A DNA stretch of 64,000 bases from Escallonia rubra (lineage: Eukaryota > Streptophyta > Magnoliopsida > Escalloniales > Escalloniaceae). Position 1 is the stretch's first letter. Each line of letters opens with the position of its first letter. The position numbers and the translations under genes were made by a program. Positions 16,035-64,000 of the stretch are shown here, piece after piece. The stretch is taken from NCBI GenBank assembly GCA_033065855.1, contig JAVXUO010002609.1, forward strand, positions 1-64,000, given 5' to 3'. The notes under the pieces were generated by a model. The model did no database searches. It saw only the letters and a program-made list of their open reading frames with translations, and was not told where the DNA came from.

Positions 16035-18811
16035 TCCACGAACACCCAACACACACAGTCAACACACGTTCAGGAAAAAAAAAAAACAACAATAACACAC
16101 ATATAGTATTCATTTTTAGTTGCACTTTTGTATTTGACATTTAAAATCATAAAATTTAGTTCACATGGAATACATAATGTGATGATAAGCGATGATGTAT
16201 TGTACAAAGAAGTTATTGTAGAATTTCATTTTAAAGTTATAAAACAAAGTAAACATTTTCAATGGTTTAAAGGCTCCAAAGAATTTGTTATAAGTCTGAA
16301 CTTGCAGAAAATATAATAAATACATACGATATCAAAAAAATATGGAATTTTCATAGAAATTATAATATTGTACTAAGAATCATTCTGTAAATTTTCAGAG
16401 TTTTTGGACAATCGTGCAATACCCAACAGCCACGTGGTACAACTGTACAAGCAGTGTACCACTCTACTGCACGGACCCACTACTGTTCACCTGTCATCTT
16501 CTTCCTCTTCAAACTTCACGGTTCACTGTTTAACCACACAGAACACACCAATCACACTACCTCATCGCTAACTCGTCACACACTATACATGTACACACAC
16601 TCATGCACTAATTTCAACTATAATTACAAACTATATACACACACATCACACCCACATACACAACAATAGCAGCAGGCTGTCCTACACCCATTTTCCATCC
16701 CACGAACACACTTCTCACACACATTCACGGCACACTCAAACACACACTGCCACACAACCATGGCTGCCCAAACTGACCCCTCATGGCTGCCCAAACTCAC
16801 CCCTCATGGCTGCACACACTCACAGTTATACATCATTAATCCAACCCATTTCTAACCACTCAAGCCACTGCCGTCACTCTCTCTCTCTCTCTTTCCTTCT
16901 TCCTTTTTCATTCACCACTTTACCTTATACCCACATATATGATTACACACATATATATCCAACACTCACGTTTGCAGGTTGCACCATGGCAGCCTATTGC
17001 ACCTCTCATAAGTTCAACCATCACATAAACACATACCTTGCCACTCATAGAACTCACGCACCAGAGCAACAACCCACGCAACCGCACTCTCTTGCCCAGC
17101 TGCCTTCACAGCAAGCTGCCCATGCACCCAAATTCCCCTCTTCTTTTGCGCAGCTATATCTGTTATGAAAAATCACCCCATAAGGTGCAAAACAGCCCGT
17201 TATCTCTGGTTCCTTCCCAAATCCATATCCCTTCATGCCGCTGGTGTCTTAAATATTGTTCATGGCACTCATGTAAGTCCTGACCTTATCATGACGAACA
17301 TTGTTTGTTTGAAATGTTGGGTCTAGTTGGTGTACTTAATGGTTGGTTTGGCTGATATGTCGTATTTAACACGAACCTAATTAACACATAATTCTTCAAA
17401 GTAATTAGAGGTATTGATGGAATACGGGTCAAGTGGGTCGTGAACTTGTGTTTTGCACCCAAATCGTCTTCTTTTTCATTGGCCGTCTTTTTCACCTGGA
17501 AGGAGCCAAGCAGGATCCCTGTTTGGCTTCTGTTCGTCCCTTTGACACTCTATTAGCTGTGGGACTTCTGTATCAGGGTTGCACCCACTTGGCAATTTCA
17601 GTAATACCTGTCACCTTATGGTTTATCAAAATAGCTATACCTATTTTCCTTCGGCAAATAAAGCTTAAGACAACACCAAACACACACAGTCAAAACACGT
17701 GCAAAATTGTGTGAGTATATGCACTGTGTGTATGCCTGTCTGTGTGTGGGTACGTTGGTGGGTCTGTGCGAAGTTGTGTACGTGTGTGCACAGTTGGGTG
17801 ATGGGTATGGCAGATTTATTGGCGTGTATAGAGAGTTAGAAGGAAGGGGGAGAGGGGGTGGCTTTATGCTGGGTGGAAGTGTGCGTGCTGAGTTTGGGAG
17901 GAAGGGACTAGAGGGCTGGGCTGATGGGTAGGGGGTTTACGTGTGTGCAAGGAGGATTGGGGGAACTTACGTGGGGACTGGGGAGTCAAGACAGAGGGGA
18001 AAAAGGGCAAAATTGTCATTTTCTTAAAAAAAAAGTTAGTCAACGCATTTGTTGACCACGCGCTATTAAAGTTAACGATTTTCGCTAAAGGTGCTCAATT
18101 TCCGTAACTGTGAGGGGTTTAGCGCTTAAGCTTGAAGTAGAGGGACAAATCGCACATCGCATAGAGTACATGGGGTCATTAGCTAATTACCCCTTTAATT
18201 AATCCCAAATGAACACACAAGTGTAAAAAAGATACTAGTTCTGACAAAATGCGTTTCTAGTGACAAAAAGACTAGTCAAAAAGCTATGGGCGGATTGCAA
18301 ATAACATCACCATCACCACCACCACCTTGATTCCAGACCATATAAGAATCCTTACGTATTGCTTCAGCAGAATGTCTACTTTTAGGAGTTTTCTCGAAAT
18401 CATGCAGGTGACTGAGCACACTAATAAGTAATAACAGATCAGGTAACGTAGCAAAGGAAATGAGAGACAGTGGAACAACAGGGGTAGCAGAAGATCACTA
18501 GCGACTTATGAATCAGGCTTCTCACTGGACATACCGTACTTTTGGATGACATGGTGGACGTAGGGCAAGACATGCGGCGCGATGTCGTCGGACAGACTGA
18601 TGGTCTTAGATTTTGTGTGATTAGCAAAGGCTGAGTACTCTCCCAGGTCACCTATAAGTAGCCGGTACGGATTTCCGGCGAGACCGTGATCTCTCAGGGA
18701 CTTCTCCAGCTTCTTCGGCCTCAACCACACCCAGTTTACTAGTTTCAAAGCCCAGGTAGCCAAAGCCAGAAAAATAACTGGGATCGCTACTGAAAATGGT
18801 GTTATTTCCAT
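12965..18811 (-). CDS. CYP72A: Cytochrome P450, CYP72A-like, complete
   Basis: Heme monooxygenase of the ER membrane; CYP72A enzymes oxidise triterpenoids, iridoids or hormones, but the substrate cannot be read here. Exons: 18811-18535, 15161-14947, 14709-14465, 14026-13651, 13390-12965. All junctions are GT-AG and in phase, giving 1,539 nt (512 aa plus stop), the usual family length. Seen: N-terminal membrane anchor (about residues 5-25) with WVWLRPK; C-helix WTKHRR; I-helix FYFGGSGTT (residues 319-327); ExxR as EVLR (378-381); PERF (433-436); heme loop [10 protein letters not shown] with Cys460. Odd: the I-helix acid (Glu or Asp before TT) is Gly325, which should affect oxygen activation. 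Intron 1 (3.4 kb) holds a MULE. Exon 1 is duplicated at 22.6-23.8 kb. Confidence 0.93.
13612..13642. repeat. (GA)n microsatellite in P450 intron 4
   Basis: A GA tract of about 15 units inside intron 4, ending 8 bp from the exon 4 splice donor (13651). Length changes here could affect splicing of that junction. Confidence 0.9.
15790..16060. repeat. CA-rich low-complexity tract
   Basis: Imperfect CACA/ACAC repeats on the plus strand (TGTG on the minus). Cys/Val-rich open frames across it are by-products of the repeat and are not genes. Confidence 0.85.
17237..17272 (+). pseudogene. Possible captured ALDH6-type exon end
   Basis: Reading plus, the sequence gives [10 protein letters not shown] directly followed by GTAAGT, a good splice donor. 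This peptide and its exon edge match methylmalonate-semialdehyde dehydrogenase (ALDH6), in which GVLNIVHGT precedes the NAD-binding region. The open frame continues upstream to about 17150 but I cannot align that part. The match is only ten residues, so capture of an ALDH6 exon by the MULE is a hypothesis. Confidence 0.35.
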
Positions 18812-18906
18812 CGTGTTGATTTGGGATACAACACAGGTCAACACAAAGACTGAGCATTCGAGAATATGGAAGGGGCACGGGAGACCACAGGAAGAGAACC
18901 CACTTC

Positions 18907-18914
18907 TACTTATA
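18907..18914 (-). promoter_or_regulatory. TATA box of P450 gene
   Basis: TATAAGTA on the minus strand, about 96 bp upstream of the ATG at 18811. The same box is kept in the duplicated copy at 23857-23864, together with the same leader. Confidence 0.6.
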
Positions 18915-18992
18915 GAGAGTTGGAGGAGAAGGATGTATAGCACTCGTAATTTTCATCTCTAATATTTGTCCATCCTTACTTTTTAGTACTTC

Positions 18993-19120
18993 CTCCCTCC
19001 CTCAAAAGTAGTGCACCACTTTGACTTGTACAGGCTTTTAAGAGTTTGGTCATTTTACTTAACTTCTATTCTTACTTTTTCATAGTCACTTTTCTCTATC
19101 CACGTGACATAATCGGTGAT
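18993..19120. mobile_element. Stowaway-like MITE remnant
   Basis: TACTTCCTCCCTCCCTCAAAAGTAGTGC followed by a CACTTTGACTTG motif resembles the 5' end of plant Stowaway (Tc1/mariner) MITEs, which begin after TA with CTCCCTCC. Duplicate copy B lacks this block. No matching right end was found. Confidence 0.35.
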
Positions 19121-22638: not shown

Positions 22639-23761
22639 CGTACTTTTGGATGACATGGTGGGCGAAGGGCAAGACATGCGGCGCGATGTCGTCCGACAGA
22701 CTGATGGTCTTAGATTTTTTTGTGTGATTAGCAAAGGTTGAGTACTCTCCCAGGTCACCTATAAGCAGCCGATACCAGTGGCAGAACCAGAATTTTTTTT
22801 TAAGTTGGGCACTAAAAATCTCAATCTGAAATTAACAATCTCACTAATAACAATTTTCAAATTCTATCAATTCCTAATTATAAATCGTAAGTTCCAAAAC
22901 TCAATTGTCACATCCTTAATTGATACAAAAAATGAAGGATTCTGAGAAGTAGAAAATTTAGAATCAATCCCTGGATATTTCCTTACTTTTACGGACTGCG
23001 GCGATCATTAGTATCATTGTAGAGAAATTGACTTGGTGACTGCCATCTGTGAGCGTTGTTGCCGGTAGCCTGTGAATCGGCCCTACAGCCTGCCTGAGCA
23101 CGTGAGACTGTGACGTTTGGGCTTTGGGTGTCGTGACTCATAAGCCCGTGACCTGTCGGAGCTGGACTAGCAAGTGGAGGCAGTGGCATTGGTCGTTGAG
23201 GGCGTGCCGTCATGAGGTAAGGCCGGTGTGCGGTGAGGGAACTGAGGAGGAGGCGGTATTCTCCTGTCCGCATATGTGCATTTAAGGCTTTGAAAGTATT
23301 GAGGCTTTGGAAACCGTAGAGAGTGAAAACAAAAATAATTTTTGTGTTGACTTTATGCGTAAACTAAGTCTTTTATTTGTATAAGTTTAGCATTTTAAAT
23401 GACTAAAATGATATCTTTTATAATCATCCTTGAAACTTTTAGATATATTAACATGTAAAATGACCACAAATACATCTTCTTTAAGTATTTTTTAAATTTT
23501 TAGGTGGGCACTTTTATCGTTGGAGATAAAATATACCATATAAAGGACAAAAGTTCCGAAGAAGCAGGTGGGCACCAGCCCACCGATGCCCCCTACTCCC
23601 TCCGCCACTGGCCGGTACGGATTTCCGGCGAGACCGTGATCTCTCAGGGACTTCTCCAGCGTCTTCGGCCTCAACCACACCCAGTCTACTAGTGTCAAAG
23701 CCCAGGCAGCCAAAGCCAGAAAAATAACTGGGATTGCTACTGAAAATGGTGTTATTTCCAT
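22639..23761 (-). pseudogene. CYP72A exon 1 duplicate, doubly interrupted
   Basis: Second copy of P450 exon 1 on the minus strand: 23761-23611 ([27 protein letters not shown], through GNPYR) and, after an 835-bp hAT, 22775-22639 ([10 protein letters not shown] through HHVIQKYG). It keeps the donor GGTATATC, directly followed by the Ac-like hAT, and differs from copy A by one in-frame Lys codon and few substitutions. With no downstream exons and two insertions it cannot give a P450. Confidence 0.9.
22776..23610. mobile_element. hAT element, Tip100-like, in P450 exon 1 copy B
   Basis: An 835-bp insertion with ends CAGTGGCAGAACCAG and, inward from the right, CAGTGGCGGAGGGAG, flanked by GCCGATAC (22768-22775) and GCCGGTAC (23611-23618), an 8-bp duplication with one mismatch. 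Its left end matches that of the element at 6550, so they are one family. No transposase frame survives. Confidence 0.82.
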
Positions 23762-23856
23762 CGTGTTGATTTGGGATACAACACAGGTCAACACAAAGAC
23801 TGAGCATTCGAAAATATGGAAGGGGCACGGGAGACCACAGGAAGAGAACCCACTTC

Positions 23857-23864
23857 TACTTATA
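23857..23864 (-). promoter_or_regulatory. TATA box of duplicated P450 exon 1
   Basis: TATAAGTA on the minus strand at the same distance from the ATG (23761) as in the intact gene, within a near-identical leader. The promoter copy may still be active even though the gene is not. Confidence 0.5.
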
Positions 23865-23941
23865 GAGAGTTGGAGGAGAAGAATGTGCAGCACTTGTAAT
23901 TTTCATCTCTAATATTTGTCCATCCTTACTCTTTAGTACTT

Positions 23942-23969
23942 CCTAACCTACCCACATGGGTAGGTTAGG
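23942..23969. repeat. 28-bp perfect palindrome
   Basis: CCTAACCTACCCA, a 2-nt centre, then its exact reverse complement. It sits where copy B departs from copy A upstream of the P450 promoter and may mark a repair or excision junction. Confidence 0.85.
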
Positions 23970-25522: not shown

Positions 25523-25954
25523 GGGTAAATTACATAAAACTCCCCTCAGGTTTGCCATAATTACACTCCGTCCCTAACTTTAAAAATTACACTTCGTTCC
25601 CCTGAGGTTTGTATCCGCATTACACACAACTACACACTTTTAACGGCAGACCCAACTCCGTTTCAAGATTTCCTGACACACTACTTTATGCAATTTTCAT
25701 ACCCAAAATACCCCCCCCCCTAATTCTTTATACACCTACGTGGTCTTCTTGTAATGTTGGTTTTTTGTAAATTTCAGCCAACTCCACAGAGACCCTTCTT
25801 CCCTTCCTCCACCTTCTGCTCGTGCCCTTTTATACATTGCCTTCATCAGACCCACCTGCTTGAGGAGGTAACAATGTCTTGGTCAGAAAATAGTGAAGAA
25901 TGGTTGGATATGAGGTTTAGGTACATGAATTGTCACCACAAGAAAATATGTATT

Positions 25955-26280
25955 TCGCGACGGAGTTTTAGCGACGGAAGGTATTCCGTCGCTAAACATG
26001 TCTTTTAGCGACGGAATATCCCGTCGTTAAAAATCCGTTGCAAAATACTATTACCGACGGAAGACACCGTCGGTAAAAGTATTTTGCAACGGATTTTTAA
26101 CGGCGGACTTTTAGCGACGGAATTACCGTCGCTAAATATTTTTATAAAATTAGTAATTTTGAGTTTTTTTTTAAATTATTTAAACGACGGAATAAAACCG
26201 TCGCTAAAAAGTCTGTCGCAAAAAGTCTTTATAATAAGACATTCACCGACGGAGTTTTAGAGACGGTGTTATTCCGTCGT
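25955..26280. repeat. Left subterminal repeats of small CACTA
   Basis: At least ten copies of the 9-mer core GCGACGGAA / TTCCGTCGC in both orientations, many as inverted pairs. In En/Spm-type elements such motifs bind the TNPA protein. Confidence 0.85.
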
Positions 26281-43411: not shown

Positions 43412-43688
43412 TGTTAAGGAACATCTTCCTTATTGATTTGTGACAAAATTCCACTAAAAGTGGATCACATGAATTATACTCATCATATCTCAGTGATAGT
43501 GGATCACATCAATTATGCTCATCATATTCCACTGATAGTGGATCTCGGGTTTTATGGCTTAGAATTAGGGGTTAATTGATTCTTGGGTATATAAATACAT
43601 CCTCTTCTCAATGTAAAAACACACACAGAAAACATTCAGTCAATTCTCTTTATGTCTTCCTTTATCTCTTATCTTTATTTTCTTAAGA
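43412..43688 (+). mobile_element. Copia solo LTR
   Basis: Begins TGTTAAGG and ends TTTTCTTAAGA; most of its length matches the LTRs at 45143-45378 and 49884-50125, including the repeated CCACTGATAGTGGATCAC blocks and the TATATAAATACAT core promoter. It is flanked by CAAGA / CATGA (5-bp duplication with one mismatch) and sits inside the Ty3 integrase relic. No internal Copia sequence adjoins it. Confidence 0.8.
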
Positions 43689-44143
43689 CATGATGAAGCT
43701 ATTGACATATATTTCAAGTAACAAAGATAAGTGTTGCACTTACTCAAAGGAAACTTGATAGTTAGTTGCCAAAGCAAGAATCCACTAGTATGCCAATCGG
43801 CAAACGACTGAGAGACACTTTGAGATTGGGAACAGGTCTATCCAAGGCTATAACCATATATACATTTAAAGCTCCATAGCCCTCGAGAATAATCTAAAAT
43901 TATCCCCAAAGTTGTATGGACCGTCTGAAGTCATCGCCGAAGTTGGTAAGGTTGCTGACAAGATTATGTTACTCCTTCACTATGTCATACACCCACTGTT
44001 TCACGCCTCACACTGGAAGAAAAAGGTCAGTCACTACCCTTCTCATTACCTCGCAGAAAGGCAAATCTTGTTGGAGCTTGTGACTCTTGTTGACGAACTC
44101 ATAATGGTTCTTGGTGATATTGACAGGAAAAACACTTTGACGT

Positions 44144-44508: not shown

Positions 44509-47500
44509 ATGAACAACCCTTCTTCTGTTCACTCTCAAGAAGCCAATTCCAGATCTGAAGGCGTCGAAGGAGAACCTACACCGGAAAAAAAACCCACCTC
44601 TGGCTGCCAAAGATCCATTCTAAACACGACAAAGTCGCCGTCGGTACCCGCTGTATCCGAAACAAGCACTCACCATTCCGTAGTCGGGGAGAACGGCGTC
44701 TCCTCTCCTGCCCAGCTCCTCAAGGTACGACCATCTCTCTATCTTTTAATTTCTCTTTTGTTGGATCTTCATATGAAAGATCTTGGACATCTGAGCGACT
44801 TCCCGAGTATTGAGGTAGTTGGTCACGACGTGCTAATGCGACTATGGCTGGTTGAGGTGCCGCGACCGTTCTTCACTTCAGCCCGACAGGCTCCTCAAGG
44901 TCATAGCCCATGTCCTTCGCTTCTTTGCAATCGGTGACGTTGCCACCACCTGTGTTGCAAAGCAGTATGATGTGCAACCAAGAAATAAACCATACAGTAG
45001 ATAAGACTACCAACATATCGATTACGTTTTTCTTTTAATTAACTTTTTGACAGGAGGAGAGGAAAGAAAGCGTGCCCTAGGATTACAGTTATATAGAAAG
45101 GAACCAAAGAACTAGAAAATGGAGAAACAAAGACCGTCAGACGGAATTGGATCACACGAATTATGCGCATCATATCCCACTGATAGTGGATCACATGAAT
45201 TATGCTTATCATATCCCACTGATAGTGGATCACGAGTTTTATGGCTTAGAGTTAGGGATTAATTGATTCTTCTTGTGTATATAAATACATGATCTTCTCA
45301 ATGTAAAGACACACAGAAAACATTAAGTCAATTCTCTCTTTATGTCTTCATTTATCTCTTCTCTTTATTTTCTTAAGATGGTATCAGAGCCATCCTTCTA
45401 AGTATTTGTTTTCATTCCAAATCTTCAATCATTCCAAACCTTCAAACACCAGCAACATCAATTTCAGCATGGATCCATCAAATTCATATTTTATTCATCA
45501 TTCAGATCATCCTGGTCACTTGCTCGTACCCATCAAATTAAATGGAGCCAATTATTCATCTTGGAGTAAATCCATGATTCATGCTCTCACAGCCAAAAAC
45601 AAAATTGGCTTCATCAATGGATCCATTGAGCAACCTTCAGAAAAAGATCAGCCAACATAATACGCTTTATGGAACCAGTGCAACAACATGATTTTATCAT
45701 GGCTTACTCACTCGGTAGAACCGGATCTAGCCAAAGGAGTCATTCATGCAAAGACCGCCTATCAAGTGTGGGAAGATTTCAAGGACCAGTTTTCACAAAA
45801 GAATGCGCCAGCTATCTACCAGATTCAAAAATCATTGGCTTCCTTTTCACAAGGTACCATGACTGTCTCAACTTATTTCACGAAACTCAAAGGCCTTTGG
45901 GACGAGTTAGATACATATCGAGCACTTCCCACATGTAACCAGATGAAAGCACATGATGAGCAAAGAGAAGAAGACCGTTTAATGCAATTTCTCATGGGTC
46001 TCCACGACACTTACAATGTTGTACGTACAAATATCCTCATGATGTCGCCACTGCCTAATGTACGACAAGCCTATTCCCTTGTTATTCAAGAGGAAACACA
46101 GCGACAAATGACACCAGAATCAATTGAAATTTTTTCCATCGCGGCTGCAATTCAGAGACGTGGAAATAATTTTTCAAATAAATCTAAAGACAAGAATTGC
46201 GAGCATTGCAATAGAGAAGGTCATACAGTTGAAAGTTGTCGCACTCTGAAATTTCATTGTAAGTATTGTGATAGAAAAGGTCATACAGAGGACAGATGCA
46301 AATTTAAAAATGGGACATGGGTTTCCAACAACACAGGAGGCCAAGGTAATCGACACAACACTTCACAACAGCGGCAACGTGGGTTTCAAGGAAATGCATT
46401 TCATGTTGCGAATACAACAGATTCTTCTCAATCTACACATGGGGTCCATTCGCAAGACACCAATAGTTCACCCGGGCTTTCCACAGATCAACTTCAACAA
46501 CTTGCTCATGCCTTGTCTATGATGACTCAAAATCAAAAGTCTCCTGGTAATAGCGATGCTTATGCAAATGCTGCAGGTCTGTCTCTTTTTCAAAATGCTT
46601 TAATTAATTCTGTATTTACTAAGCCTTGGATTTTGGATAGCGGAGCTACTGATCATATTACTTCCGATCCTACGCTTTTCACTCAAAAAAATTCCTCATC
46701 AATACCCTCTGTCAGTTTGCCCACGGGGTCATCCGCCTCAATCAATTCCATTGGCACCATACCATTTAACTCAAATATCACATTAGACAACGTTTTATGT
46801 GTTCCTTCTTTTCGTTTAAATTTGATGTCTGTTAGCAAACTCACCAATGATTTAAATTGTTGTGCCATTTTGTTTCCTTCCTTTTGTGCTTTGCAGGACT
46901 TGGCTACGGGGAAGATGATTGGCTCGGGTAAGCAGCGTGGTGGTCTCTATTACATGTCCCCAATACAACAGGCACCTGTTTCTCATCAAGTTTCACAACC
47001 CTCAAATTTGTGGCACATGCGTTTGGGACATCCATCACCATTTCGTCTAAGATTAATTGCTCCATTATTGCCTTCTCATAATATTCGTTTCGATAATAAT
47101 TGTGTTGTTTGTCCTATGGCTAAACAGACCAGACTTCCATTTCCTTCAAGTACTATATCAACTCGTGCTCCATTTGATTTGTTGCATTGTGATATATGGG
47201 GTCCACACAAAGTACCCACTCATTTAGGGGCTCATTTTTTTCTTACAATTGTGGATGATTTTACAAGGTGCACATGGTTATTTCTTATGCATTACAAGTC
47301 AGAAACTCAAAAATTTTTACAGTCTTCTATTGCATTTGCTAAAACTCAATTCCATGCCTCGGTTAAAGCAATCAGAGTAGATAATGGTAAAGAATTCTTG
47401 TCCATGCAAATTTTTTTTTCACTCTTATGGTATTGAATATCAACACACTTGTGTTTCAACTCCACAACAAAATGGGGTAGTTGAACGCAAGCATCGCCAT

Positions 47501-50500
47501 ATTCTAACTGTAGCACGTGCACTACGCTTTCAATCTCACTTGCCCCTTACCTTTTGGGGAGAATGTGTATTGACTGCGGTCTATCTTATCAACCGATTGC
47601 CAACCCCATTGTTATCTTCCAAGTCACCTTTTGAATTATTGTACAATCATCCACCATCATTTGATCACTTGAAAGTCTTTGGTTGTCTGTGTTACGCAAC
47701 TGTTGTTCATCCCACATATAAATTTGATTCCCGTGCCAAACGTTGCGTATTTGTTGGGTATCCTACTGGTCAAAAAGGTTTCAAACTTTTTGATTTGACA
47801 ACTAAAACATTTTTTGTTAGTCGTGATGTCAAATTTTCTGAAACTATCTTTCCTTTCATGTCGGCTACACATCCAACTTCCACATTGCCATATATTTCTC
47901 CCGACTTCATGGAAAATTGGCAATCTTCACCATCCTTACCCACAAACATCCCATCTTCCCAACTTCAACCCACTGAGCCAACAACCATACAAGAATCTAC
48001 CTCTTCCATACAATCTCCCTTAGCTGAACCAACGGCCGCAGAGGATATTTCTCCCAATCCTACCCAGCCTCTTACATCCTCGCCTCCAGCCCAATCCACT
48101 GAACTTATTTCAACCTCTTCAGATTCTATCATTCCTTCCTCTCCTGCCCCGCGCCAATCCCTTCGGCCCAAGCAACCTCCAGCATGGCATAGAGACTACA
48201 TACTGTCAGCACAAGTCAATCATCCTTCCACAGTGCCAAGTTCTACGCCAGGTACTCGCTATCCTCTTTATCACTTTCTTTCCTACTATCGTATCTCTTC
48301 TGCCCATTGTACCTTTTTAGCCAACATTACATGTCATACCGAGCCTCAGTCATATGCTCAGGCTATCCTTGATCCACATTGGCAACAAGCAATGAATGCA
48401 GAATTAGAAGCATTGCAACAAAATAAGACTTGGAGTTTGGTTCAACTTCCTGATGGTCATAAACCTATTGGCTGTAAATGGGTTTATAAAACCAAGTACA
48501 GATCTGATGGCACAGTTGAGCGTTATAAGGCTCGCCTTGTCGCAAAGGGATATACTCAAGTTGAGGGAATCGATTATCAGGAAACATTTTCTCCTACAGC
48601 GAAACTCACTACACTTCGTTGTCTTCTCACTATTATTTCTGTTCGGCATTGGTTCGCCTACCAATTAGATGTTCAAAATGCTTTTCTTCATGGTGACTTG
48701 CAAGAAGAAGTGTATATGGAACCTCCACCTGGTCTTCGCCGACAGGGGGAGAACATTGTATGTCGGCTCCACAAATCCCTTTATGGCCTCAAACAAGCAT
48801 CAAGAAATTGGTTTCTCACATTTTCAGCGACTATTCAGAGGGCAGGTTATCAACAATCAAAGGCTGATTATTCTCTTTTCACCAAAGCTAAAGGTACTTC
48901 ATTCACTGCGATCCTCATCTATGTTGACGATATACTTCTCACTGGAAATGATCTTCAAGAAATTGAACGTCTCAAAAAATTTCTTCTCAAACGCTTCCGC
49001 ATCAAAGATCTTGGAGACTTAAAATACTTTTTGGGTATTGAATTCTCTCGTTCAAAGAAAGGCATTTTCATGTCTCAGAGAAAATATGCAGTCGATATTT
49101 TACAAGATTCAGGACTTCTAGGTGTACGTCCTGACAAATTTCCAATGGAACAAAATTTGAAGCTCACTCCTACAGATGGAATTTTACTGAGTGATCAAAC
49201 TAAATATCGAAGACTAGTTGGCAGACTGATTTAGCTTACCGTCACAAGGCCCGACATAGTCTATTTTGTTCGAACACTAAGTCAATTCATGCATGAGCCT
49301 CGTAAACCTCATTGGGATGCAGCCATACGAATCCTTAAATACATCAAAGGTAATCCTGGTCAAGGTTTACTATTTCCTTCCACAAACAATCTTGCTTTGA
49401 AAGCCTTTTGTGATTCAGATTGGGGAGGTTGTCGTACCACAAGGAGGTCAGTCACGGGATATTGCATTTTCCTTGGAAATTCTCTTGTCTCATGGAAATC
49501 CAAGAAACAAGCTAATGTTTCTAGATCATCAGCAGAAGCAGAATATCGAGCTATGGCAAATACATGTTTAGAGCTAACGTGGCTACGTTATATTCTACAA
49601 GATCTAAGAGTTCCACAGGTAGCTCCCACACAATTATTTTGTGACAACCAAGCAGCTTTGCATATTGCAGCGAATCCTGTTTTTCATGAGCGCACAAAGC
49701 ACATTGAAATAGATTGTCACATTGTTCGAGAAAAACTACAAGCTGGAATGATCAAACCGTCATATGTGCCTACCCGCTTTCAGTTAGCAGATGTCTTCAC
49801 AAAAGCATTGGGAAAAGATCAATTCGAGACATTACGTAACAAGTTGGGACTTCATGATATTCACTCTCCAACTTGAGGGGGAGTGTTAAGGAATTGGATC
49901 ACACGAATTATGCGCATCATATCCCACTGATAGTGGATCACATGAATTATGCTTATCATATCCCACTGATAGTGGATCACGGGTTTTATGGCTTAGAGTT
50001 AGGGATTAATTGATTCTTCTTGTGTATATAAATACATGCTCTTCTCAATGTAAAGACACACAGAAAACATTCAGTCAATTCTCTCTTTATGTCTTCATTT
50101 ATGTCTTCTCTTTATTTTCTTAAGAGAAGGCGTCGAAGGAGAACCTACACCGAAAAAAAAACCCACCTCTGGCTGCCAAAGATCCATTCTAAACACAACA
50201 AAGTCGCCGTCGGTACCCGCCGTATCCGAAACAAGCACTCACCATTCCGTAGTCGGGGAGAACGGCGTCTCCTCTCCTGCCCAGCTCCTCAAGGTACGAC
50301 CATCTCTCTCTCTTTTAATTTCTCTTTTGTTGGATCTCCATATGAAAGATCTTGGACATCTGAGTGACTTCCCGAGTATTGAGGTAGTTGGTCACGACGT
50401 GCTAATGCGACTATGGCTGGTTGAGGTGCCGCGACCGTTCTTCACTTCAGCCCGACAGGCTCCTCAAGGTCATAGCCCATGTCGTTCGCTTCTTTGCAAT

Positions 50501-50939
50501 CGGTGACGTTGCCACCACCTGTGTTGCAAAGCAGTATGATGTGCAACCAAGAAATAAACCATACAGTAGATAAGACTACCAACATATCGATTACGTTTTT
50601 CTTCTAATTAACTTTTTGACAGGAGGAGAGGAAAGAAAGCGTGCCCTAGGATTACAGTTATATAGAAAGGAACCAAAGAACTAGAAAATGGAGAAACAAA
50701 GACCGTCAGACTCCATCCTTTTTTGGCTTTCTGATGCAGTTCATTAAAGGATCTAGGAAACTGAAAACGCCAAATTAAAAGAACTTGAAAATTGGCTCGA
50801 CTTCAAGGCGCAGCTGATTGGGGAAATCGAAGGTCGAATTGCATTATCGAATCATTCTTTTTGTTTATATGGTAGTAGTAGTTGGTCAATGCTGGTTATG
50901 TTTTTCTTGTGTTTTACTATGCCTAGGATGTTTTTGTAA
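44509..50939 (+). CDS. Unknown small coiled-coil protein gene, split by Copia
   Basis: I do not recognise the family. Exon 1 (44509-44724; starts [15 protein letters not shown], ends SSPAQLLK) stops at a GTACGA donor in phase 0. A fitting exon lies at 50757-50939 (acceptor TCTAG), reading [28 protein letters not shown] and a hydrophobic C-terminus before TAA. Joined, they give about 133 residues: a Ser/Glu-rich head and a coiled coil. The 6-kb intron now contains the Copia element and a 586-bp duplication that includes the last 56 codons of exon 1, so splicing could use either donor copy. The exon pairing is inferred from phase and coiled-coil continuity; it needs transcript support. Confidence 0.45.
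44557..45142 (+). repeat. 586-bp host duplication, left copy
   Basis: Starts GAAGGCGTCGAAGG inside exon 1 of the small host gene and ends GACCGTCAGAC where the Copia 5' LTR begins. It is repeated at 50126-50711 with the same length and about eight differences in the stretches compared. Confidence 0.93.
45143..45378 (+). repeat. Copia 5' LTR, lacking first 6 nt
   Basis: Includes two CCCACTGATAGTGGATCAC blocks and a TATATAAATACAT core promoter near 45277. Relative to the 3' LTR (242 bp) it is 236 bp, the difference being the missing TGTTAA start. Confidence 0.9.
45379..45390 (+). promoter_or_regulatory. Primer-binding site, initiator tRNA-Met
   Basis: TGGTATCAGAGC directly after the 5' LTR is complementary to the 3' end of plant initiator methionine tRNA, the usual primer of Copia reverse transcription. 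Confidence 0.85.
45469..49876 (+). pseudogene. Copia Gag-Pol polyprotein, three lesions
   Basis: Single Gag-Pol frame from the ATG at 45469 ([20 protein letters not shown]). Domains in order: Gag (UBN2 type), two CCHC knuckles ([14 protein letters not shown] and [14 protein letters not shown]), protease ([11 protein letters not shown]), GAG-pre-integrase ([10 protein letters not shown]), integrase core, reverse transcriptase with [11 protein letters not shown], and RNase H ending [14 protein letters not shown]. Three lesions: an in-frame TAA at 45658-45660, a one-base shift in the T run near 47410-47418 within the integrase, and a TAG at 49232-49234 between reverse transcriptase and RNase H. 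The rest is well preserved, which fits a fairly recent insertion. It cannot make the full polyprotein. Confidence 0.92.
49884..50125 (+). repeat. Copia 3' LTR
   Basis: A full 242-bp LTR starting TGTTAAGGAATTGG and ending TTTTCTTAAGA, directly after the purine tract. The next bases (GAAGGCGTCG) are the start of the second 586-bp host copy. Confidence 0.9.
50126..50711 (+). repeat. 586-bp host duplication, right copy
   Basis: Same 586 bp as 44557-45142. It includes a 5'-truncated copy of exon 1 (50126-50293, ending at the same GTACGA donor) and the first part of the intron. After it the host intron continues (TCCATCC...) to the exon at 50757. Confidence 0.93.
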
Positions 50940-56006: not shown

Positions 56007-56400
56007 CACTACAAGAAAATATGCTTTTAGCGACGGGGAAATCCGTCGCTAAAAGCCCAAAATCCGTCACTAAAAGAATTAGCGACGGATTCACCGTCGC
56101 TAAATATCCCTCGTATAAAAGCCCGTCACTAATAGTTTAGCGACGGAATTTTTAAATCCGTCGCTAAATATGTCATTTTTACCGACGGATTTATTTTTCA
56201 TTAGCGACGGATATTCCGTCGCTAATTATATTTTTAGAATTTTAATTTATTTTCTTTTTTGTCAAATTAGCGACGGATTTGATATTTTGGCGACGGAATA
56301 TTCCGTCGCTAAAAAAACTTATTTAGCGACGGAATATTCCGTCGCTAAATAACTGATTGTAGGAATACTTTAGCGACGGAATAAATCCGTTTCCAAAAGT
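56007..56400. repeat. Subterminal repeats of large CACTA
   Basis: Close to twenty TTAGCGACGG / CCGTCGCTAA motifs, many in inverted pairs. In En/Spm these sites bind TNPA and set activity and methylation. Confidence 0.88.
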
Positions 56401-62859: not shown

Positions 62860-64000
62860 CATGGAGTAATTATGGGATGTACAAGGGCTAATTAGGGCTA
62901 ATTGGGTTATTAGGGTTAATTACGATTATTAATTATAGCTGATTAGGGTTGATTAGGACTAATTAGGGTTATTTAGTCCTAATTAGGGTTTAATTGTGCC
63001 GAGTAGTGATGATTAGTCCTAATTAGGGCTAATTGGGCTTAATTGGGTTATGTTAGGGCTAATTAATGTTAATGAGGGATAGTTTCGGATAATTATAGCT
63101 GACTAGGGTTGATTAGGACTAATTAGAGTTATGTAGTCCTAATTAGGGTTTAATTGTGCCGAGTAGTGCTGATTAGTCCTAATTAGGGCTAATTAGGCTT
63201 AATTGGGTTATGTTAGGGCTAATTAATGTTAATGAGGGCTAGTTTCGGATAATTATAGCTAATTAGGGTTGATTATGACTAATTAGGGTTTAATTGTGCC
63301 GAGTAGTGATGATTAGTCCTAATTAGGGCTAATTAGGCTTAATTGGGTTATGTTAGGGCTAATTAATGTTAATGAGGGATAGTTTCGGATAATTATAGCT
63401 GACTAGGGTTGATTAGGACTAATTAGAGTTATTTAGTCCTAATTAGGGTTTAATTGTGCCGAGTAGTGCTGATTAGTCCTAATTAGGGCTAATTAGGCTT
63501 AATTGGGTTATGTTAGGGCTAATTAATGTTAATGAGGGCTAGTTTCGGATAATTATAGCTAATTAGGGTTGATTATGACTAATTAGGGTTTAATTGTGCC
63601 GAGTAGTGATGATTAGTCCTAATTAGGGCTAATTAAGCTTAATTGGATTATGTTAGAGCTAATTAATGTTAATGAGGGCAAGTTTCGAATAATTATAGCT
63701 AATTAGGGTTGATTAGGACTAATTAGGGTTATTTAGTCCTAATTAGGGTTTTGATGGTGCCGAGTAGTGTTGATTAGTCCTAACTAGCGCTAATTAGGCG
63801 TAATTGGGTTATGTTAGTGCAAATTATGACTAATTAGGCTAACTACAATCAATATGCGCATAATTGGGTTCATTTGCCTAATTTGGGATAATTACAGCTA
63901 ATTTGAATTTCATCAGGTTCTTAGGGTTAATTAAAACTAATTAGGCTCGTTAGAGCTAATTAGGGTTAATTGATTTACTAAAATATTGTTAATCAGGACT
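62860..64000. repeat. Tandem repeat array, 160+140 bp higher-order unit
   Basis: Built from short CTAATTAGGGTTAATT-like words arranged in units that share GTGCCGAGTAGTG. That landmark recurs at about 62997, 63157, 63297, 63457, 63597 and 63758, spacings of 160, 140, 160, 140 and about 160 bp. The 140-bp unit lacks the 20-bp ATTTAGTCCTAATTAGGGTT block. 63001-63300 and 63301-63600 are nearly identical, so the repeating unit is now 300 bp. The array decays to the right and reaches the window edge. It lies within or beside the large CACTA. Confidence 0.88.

Follow-up and report, generated by a model that had tools for sequence, protein, structure and literature searches.

A Copia retrotransposon between two copies of a 586-bp host segment in Escallonia rubra: a candidate one-ended integration

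The focal locus

The window analysed here is the whole 64,000-bp stretch formed by positions 1-64000 of contig JAVXUO010002609.1 (C126 below) of the Escallonia rubra assembly GCA_033065855.1 (566 Mb in 3222 contigs), and it contains no N. In it a Copia element is embedded in the order host, X, 5′ long terminal repeat (LTR) minus 6 bp, Copia internal region, complete 3′ LTR, X, host, where X is a 586-bp segment whose first 300 bp are covered by the repeat family D2. The features are the following:

44557..45142, + strand: left X copy, 586 bp, running on from the native left flank as in the related contigs C2161, C972 and C1395
45142..45143, no strand: junction of the X end with LTR position 7, without microhomology and presumably repaired by the host
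45143..45378, + strand: 5′ LTR without its first 6 bp (LTR positions 7-242), from comparison with sister copies
45379..49883, + strand: Copia internal region, with gag, pre-integrase, integrase-core pieces, SH3-like and RVT_2
49884..50125, + strand: complete 3′ LTR, 242 bp, TGTTAAGG...CTTAAGA, delimited by the edges of sister copies
50125..50126, no strand: precise U5-end junction, CTTAAGA|GAAGG, presumably joined by integrase
50126..50711, + strand: right X copy, 586 bp, running into the native right flank as in C2161, C972 and C1395

The two X copies (44557-45142 and 50126-50711) align without gaps and differ at 8 of 586 positions (6 transitions and 2 transversions), and both edges are flush, the last base of X at 45142 being followed by LTR sequence from 45143, and the last base of the 3′ LTR at 50125 by X from 50126. 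The LTR pair (45143-45378 and 49890-50125) differs at 4 of 236 positions. Read at both junctions, the element is not flanked by a 5-bp target duplication, and at the trimmed junction X and the LTR share no microhomology at all. A previous sequence-only reading had described the flush 586-bp repeats, a 5′ LTR six bases short beside a complete 3′ LTR, the missing 5-bp duplication, and a similar age for the X and LTR pairs; the alignment, the LTR edges of sister copies, the junctions, and the two divergences, which do not differ (8/586 versus 4/236; Fisher p = 0.75), bear out this description. Canonical integrase insertion leaves a 4-6 bp duplication at both ends and complete outer ends on both LTRs; here, a 586-bp direct duplication occupies the place of the short one, and the 5′ LTR lacks 6 bp beside a complete 3′ LTR.

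The Copia element

LTR limits were set from sister copies, in which the LTR measures 242 bp (TGTTAAGG...CTTAAGA) and is followed directly, in its 5′ copies, by TGGTATCAGAG; since these copies define the repeat, the focal 3′ LTR is complete and the focal 5′ LTR begins at LTR position 7. Directly after the latter stands TGGTATCAGAGCC, which we take to be a sequence of the primer-binding type. Pfam matches above cut-off were obtained for Retrotran_gag_2, gag_pre-integrs, and RVT_2, and rve, upstream of RVT_2, reached 28.8 bits, under its cut-off of 32.6. With an LTR pair, a primer-binding site, gag and polymerase domains, and integrase before reverse transcriptase, the element qualifies as a Ty1/Copia LTR retrotransposon. 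Two stops, at 45658-45660 and 49232-49234, break its reading frame, which also shifts near 47.4 kb. The LTR termini, in the focal element and its sister copies, are TG...GA instead of TG...CA. Another LTR of this Copia group stands alone at 43456-43691, 0.9 kb upstream of X; it shares ~89% identity with the focal LTRs, and C2161 has it too.

Relatives of the locus

X is pre-existing host sequence: of the 40 matches listed for it, 38 lie elsewhere in the assembly, most of them partial. The three relatives examined, on C2161, C972 and C1395, have both flanks and one X without the focal Copia, and in each of them X is interrupted by a different insert at a different place. The C2161 insert, which is unrelated, ~2.4 kb long and presumably of the CACTA type, has inverted ends and repeats 3 bp of the target (GAC); that of C972 (~4.7 kb, read except for its middle 1.7 kb) has inverted ends and a 9-bp target repeat, and no focal-type LTR on C972 appears among the best 40 LTR matches listed; that of C1395 (~0.9 kb) was read whole and has no Copia match. 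Tandem X copies without Copia, which the sequence-only reading had named as the sign of an older duplication, occur in none of the three (two X copies in 0/3). Because all three have X once between both flanks, the duplication is derived, and we take the single-X state as ancestral given that their inserts in X differ while none has X twice.

The insert sites in the X of the relatives (L003/L051, L004, and L005/L006) are near X positions 311, 465, and 530, and with the focal event included, four insertions are tied to this one 586-bp segment. The ends of the C2161 insert (L005/L006, C2161:37426-39815) are ~75% like window positions 56007-56211 and 25934-26173.

C2161 is collinear with the window, at ~92-98% identity, in stretches sampled over 14.0-53.2 kb; further right on C2161, at 44-47 and 52-56 kb, there are two stretches without match to the window, and a ~100-bp piece of its right flank is inverted. 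Polarised against the relatives, 4 of the differences between the X copies fall in the left copy and 3 in the right, with 1 ambiguous, and 6 derived sites, absent from C2161, are common to both copies, which therefore come from one local copy. The changes private to each copy (4 and 3) would be as expected of a local duplication followed by independent drift. The X copies are 8 sites apart and either one is 24-26 sites from C2161 (575 compared), and the focal event is therefore younger than the C2161 split.

Integration and end trimming across the family

Young family copies, recognised with the 5′ LTR end plus leader as query, occupy at least 14 places at ≥98% identity, the focal one included, with 40 of 69 candidate places scored. 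A perfect 5-bp target duplication flanks 10 of these 14 (AAAAG, ACCAC, TTCTT, AGCTT, GGATG, TCTCC, CAAAT, ATTTG, ACCAT, and GTATA). Among 13 older copies tried, the five with both ends readable all have one by eye (TAATG, TATCA, AATAC, ACCTC, and CGCCT), and from the two sets together we conclude that normal integration in this family duplicates 5 bp. The U5 end is complete in 19/19 copies with both ends read (14 young and 5 older), a count in which U5-end loss is possibly under-represented, as 8 of the 13 older copies had no recognisable 3′ LTR in the stretch guessed and were left uncounted. Of the same 19, three have lost bases at the U3 end (3/14 among the young), and target duplications of hundreds of bp accompany 2 of the 14 young copies. 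The young copies without a 5-bp duplication are four: the focal one (C126), C847, C741, and C979.

At C847, the element is bordered on both sides, with no intervening bases, by the copies of a direct duplication (269/270 bp, with 7 mismatches and one gap). Its 3′ LTR is complete, and 10 bp are missing from the start of its 5′ LTR. The trimmed junction shows a 3-bp TTG microhomology between the host continuation and the LTR. The duplicated segment resembles, by motif, what is presumably part of a protein-kinase gene. The best-scoring relatives include no clean empty site for this locus; among them, the distant C1140 (77%) aligns with portions of both flanks. Since C847 repeats the focal anatomy, it is unlikely that the focal duplication was an unrelated event, older or later, and independent duplication is disfavoured because both breakpoints would need to lie no more than 10 bp from the element ends at each of the two loci.

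C979 has a 5′ LTR without 37 bp, and its flanks, searched over 4504 bp upstream and 3945 bp downstream, contain no duplication. Comparison with two relatives suggests a loss of host DNA there in the range of about 0-14 bp, and this copy could be a deletion-type one-ended insertion or the product of a later deletion. C741, with a target duplication of at most 3 bp (GCA), was considered as a third long duplication, a 138-bp repeat flush with its 3′ LTR recurring upstream, and was rejected, the repeat copies differing at 10 of 138 positions. Sequence upstream of the 138-bp repeat also resembles, by eye, that upstream of the 5′ LTR, and this resemblance and the 10/138 differences place the element inside one member of an older tandem duplication. 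C2266 and C1698b were likewise set aside, their flank repeats not being flush at both ends and both copies having 5-bp duplications.

Interpretation

One-ended integration is itself already known, and would here have occurred in a plant element. In aberrant HIV integration, one end is normal and the other often truncated (PMC5041404); duplication of host DNA was the commonest outcome at the aberrant end in the HIV series, usually much longer than 5 bp and reaching hundreds or thousands of bp. The model offered by its authors has a host polymerase extend the free viral end on nearby DNA, after which recombination joins it (PMC5041404). HIV-1 and avian sarcoma-leukosis virus vectors thus resemble the focal locus in combining one exact end, another often truncated, and a long host duplication, but they do so after treatment with integrase inhibitors, with integrase mutants, or with mutated viral ends (PMC5041404), whereas the focal copy is an old and apparently spontaneous insertion of a plant-type Copia. 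The sequence-only reading had set the structure against integrase duplications of 4-6 bp; these precedents place it within known integration biology, for one-ended retroviral integration yields truncated ends and host duplications of hundreds to thousands of bp (PMC5041404). Canonical Ty1/Copia integration produces exact 5-bp duplications, as in 10 of the 14 young copies of this family, unlike the 586-bp and 270-bp duplications and trimmed U3 ends of the focal locus and C847.

We consider it fairly probable that the focal insertion was a one-ended (aberrant) integration of Copia cDNA. The U5 end, at the right edge of the 3′ LTR, would have been joined normally, and from the structure of that end probably by integrase, at the left edge of X; the U3 end would have failed in concerted joining 5 bp away and lost 6 bp. 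Host synthesis could then have copied X, starting either from the free 3′ end of the left flank or, as the retroviral model has it, from the cDNA end still unjoined, and end joining would have tied the U3 terminus to the distal edge of X. The locus shows what such an event should leave: one exact and one truncated end, found again at C847, and a host duplication from a single-copy target, X being single in 3/3 relatives. Several points weigh against this account, besides the possible under-count of U5-end loss and the lack of a clean empty site for C847: it draws on two loci only; end joining could also ligate a blunt cDNA end without loss; microhomology, usual at aberrant HIV junctions (PMC5041404), is missing from the trimmed junction of the focal copy; and divergence at C847 seems higher in the duplicate (7/269 plus one gap) than in the LTRs (2/232), a difference that is not significant (p = 0.19).

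The same structure could arise without integrase if nicks on opposite strands ~586 bp apart, or a staggered break, were filled in and Copia cDNA was end-joined into the gap, as in patch-mediated repair. Such repair has a precedent in rice, a 2014 study by Vaughn and Bennetzen that PMC4812662 cites and that reportedly described insertions from patch-mediated double-strand break repair bounded by direct duplications. Those plant inserts share the bordering duplications of the focal one, which differs from them in being an almost full-length LTR element with one end exact. The locus also has the long direct duplication, seemingly formed with its insert, that marks patch-mediated repair, and duplication and insertion are taken as simultaneous because X is single in the relatives and the X and LTR divergences are similar. 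If capture worked without integrase, however, either end should suffer trimming; on small numbers, only U3 is trimmed, and U5 is exact in 19/19 copies, the two loci among them. One-ended joining is preferred over simple capture at a staggered break, which would account for the duplication just as well, because a complete 3′ LTR with a trimmed 5′ LTR recurs at C847; with n = 2 this one-sided trimming is a lean, not a proof, and we judge capture without integrase unlikely. The break-repair origin proposed from the sequence therefore survives in part: X was most likely duplicated by the inserting event through repair that copied it, but the exact U5 and trimmed U3 ends, repeated at C847, point to normal joining of one end and host joining of the other more than to simple capture at a pre-existing break with a long stagger.

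A two-step history, in which normal insertion at the left X edge (giving a GAAGG duplication) was followed by illegitimate exchange with an empty allele, or a template switch to one, that supplied the second X, would agree with what stands at the right junction and in the opening 5 bp of X. It seems improbable, as the second breakpoint, free to fall over ~5 kb, lies 6 bp from the LTR edge at the focal locus and 10 bp at C847, and the X and LTR divergences reveal no time lag. Still less credible is an assembly artefact in which a haplotype having X without Copia was wrongly joined to a Copia-bearing one: the collinear single-X contig C2161 does imply two haplotypes or duplicates in the assembly, but the X/LTR join has no shared sequence able to mislead an assembler, the derived sites common to both X copies are missing in C2161, and C847 independently has the same anatomy. 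An older tandem X-X whose exact junction was hit by Copia, with later loss of the 5-bp duplication and 6 bp of LTR, recalls the same-family C741 in its older tandem duplication, but is scarcely believable given that homology crosses the insertion site at C741 and here ends right at both borders of the element, that 0/3 relatives have two X copies, and that exact junction hits would be required at two loci.

On the counts of young copies (long duplications in 2/14, trimmed U3 ends in 3/14, an exact U5 end in 14/14), the Copia subfamily might even have an intrinsic, recurrent one-ended route, though we consider this unlikely. Were there one, the unequal TG...GA LTR ends would present integrase with different terminal bases, and the second end may often fail for that reason. 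If the same held for all LTR families whose ends depart from TG...CA, duplicated gene fragments would be a by-product of their transposition.

Significance

With X single in its relatives and C847 as a second, independent case, the focal locus indicates that insertion of a plant-type LTR element can double a host segment hundreds of bp long. Among the literature entries listed (titles and abstract openings) on long target duplications of LTR retrotransposons or on tandem duplications linked to inserts, no natural plant Copia case appears. Annotation that requires a 5-bp duplication could overlook or misread such copies, and insertion with a long duplication is a simple route to partial gene duplications. 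The one-ended model, known from drug-treated or mutant retroviruses, becomes testable in natural genomes through surveys of which end is trimmed.

Other repeats in the window

Downstream of the right X copy, an open frame at 51722-52270 matches DDE_Tnp_4 and Plant_tran, and we take it to be a piece of a PIF/Harbinger-type transposase. A 629-bp direct duplication (943-1571 and 2121-2749; 95.6%) surrounds ~549 bp, has ends unlike LTRs, and could be another insert-linked duplication. A 334-bp direct repeat (18661-18994 and 23611-23944; 96.7%), has its copies 4.95 kb apart; at the edges inspected, neither LTR ends nor a target duplication is obvious, and further repeat pairs lie nearby. Near the window end, positions 62884-63970 hold an overlapping direct repeat array (82-92%).
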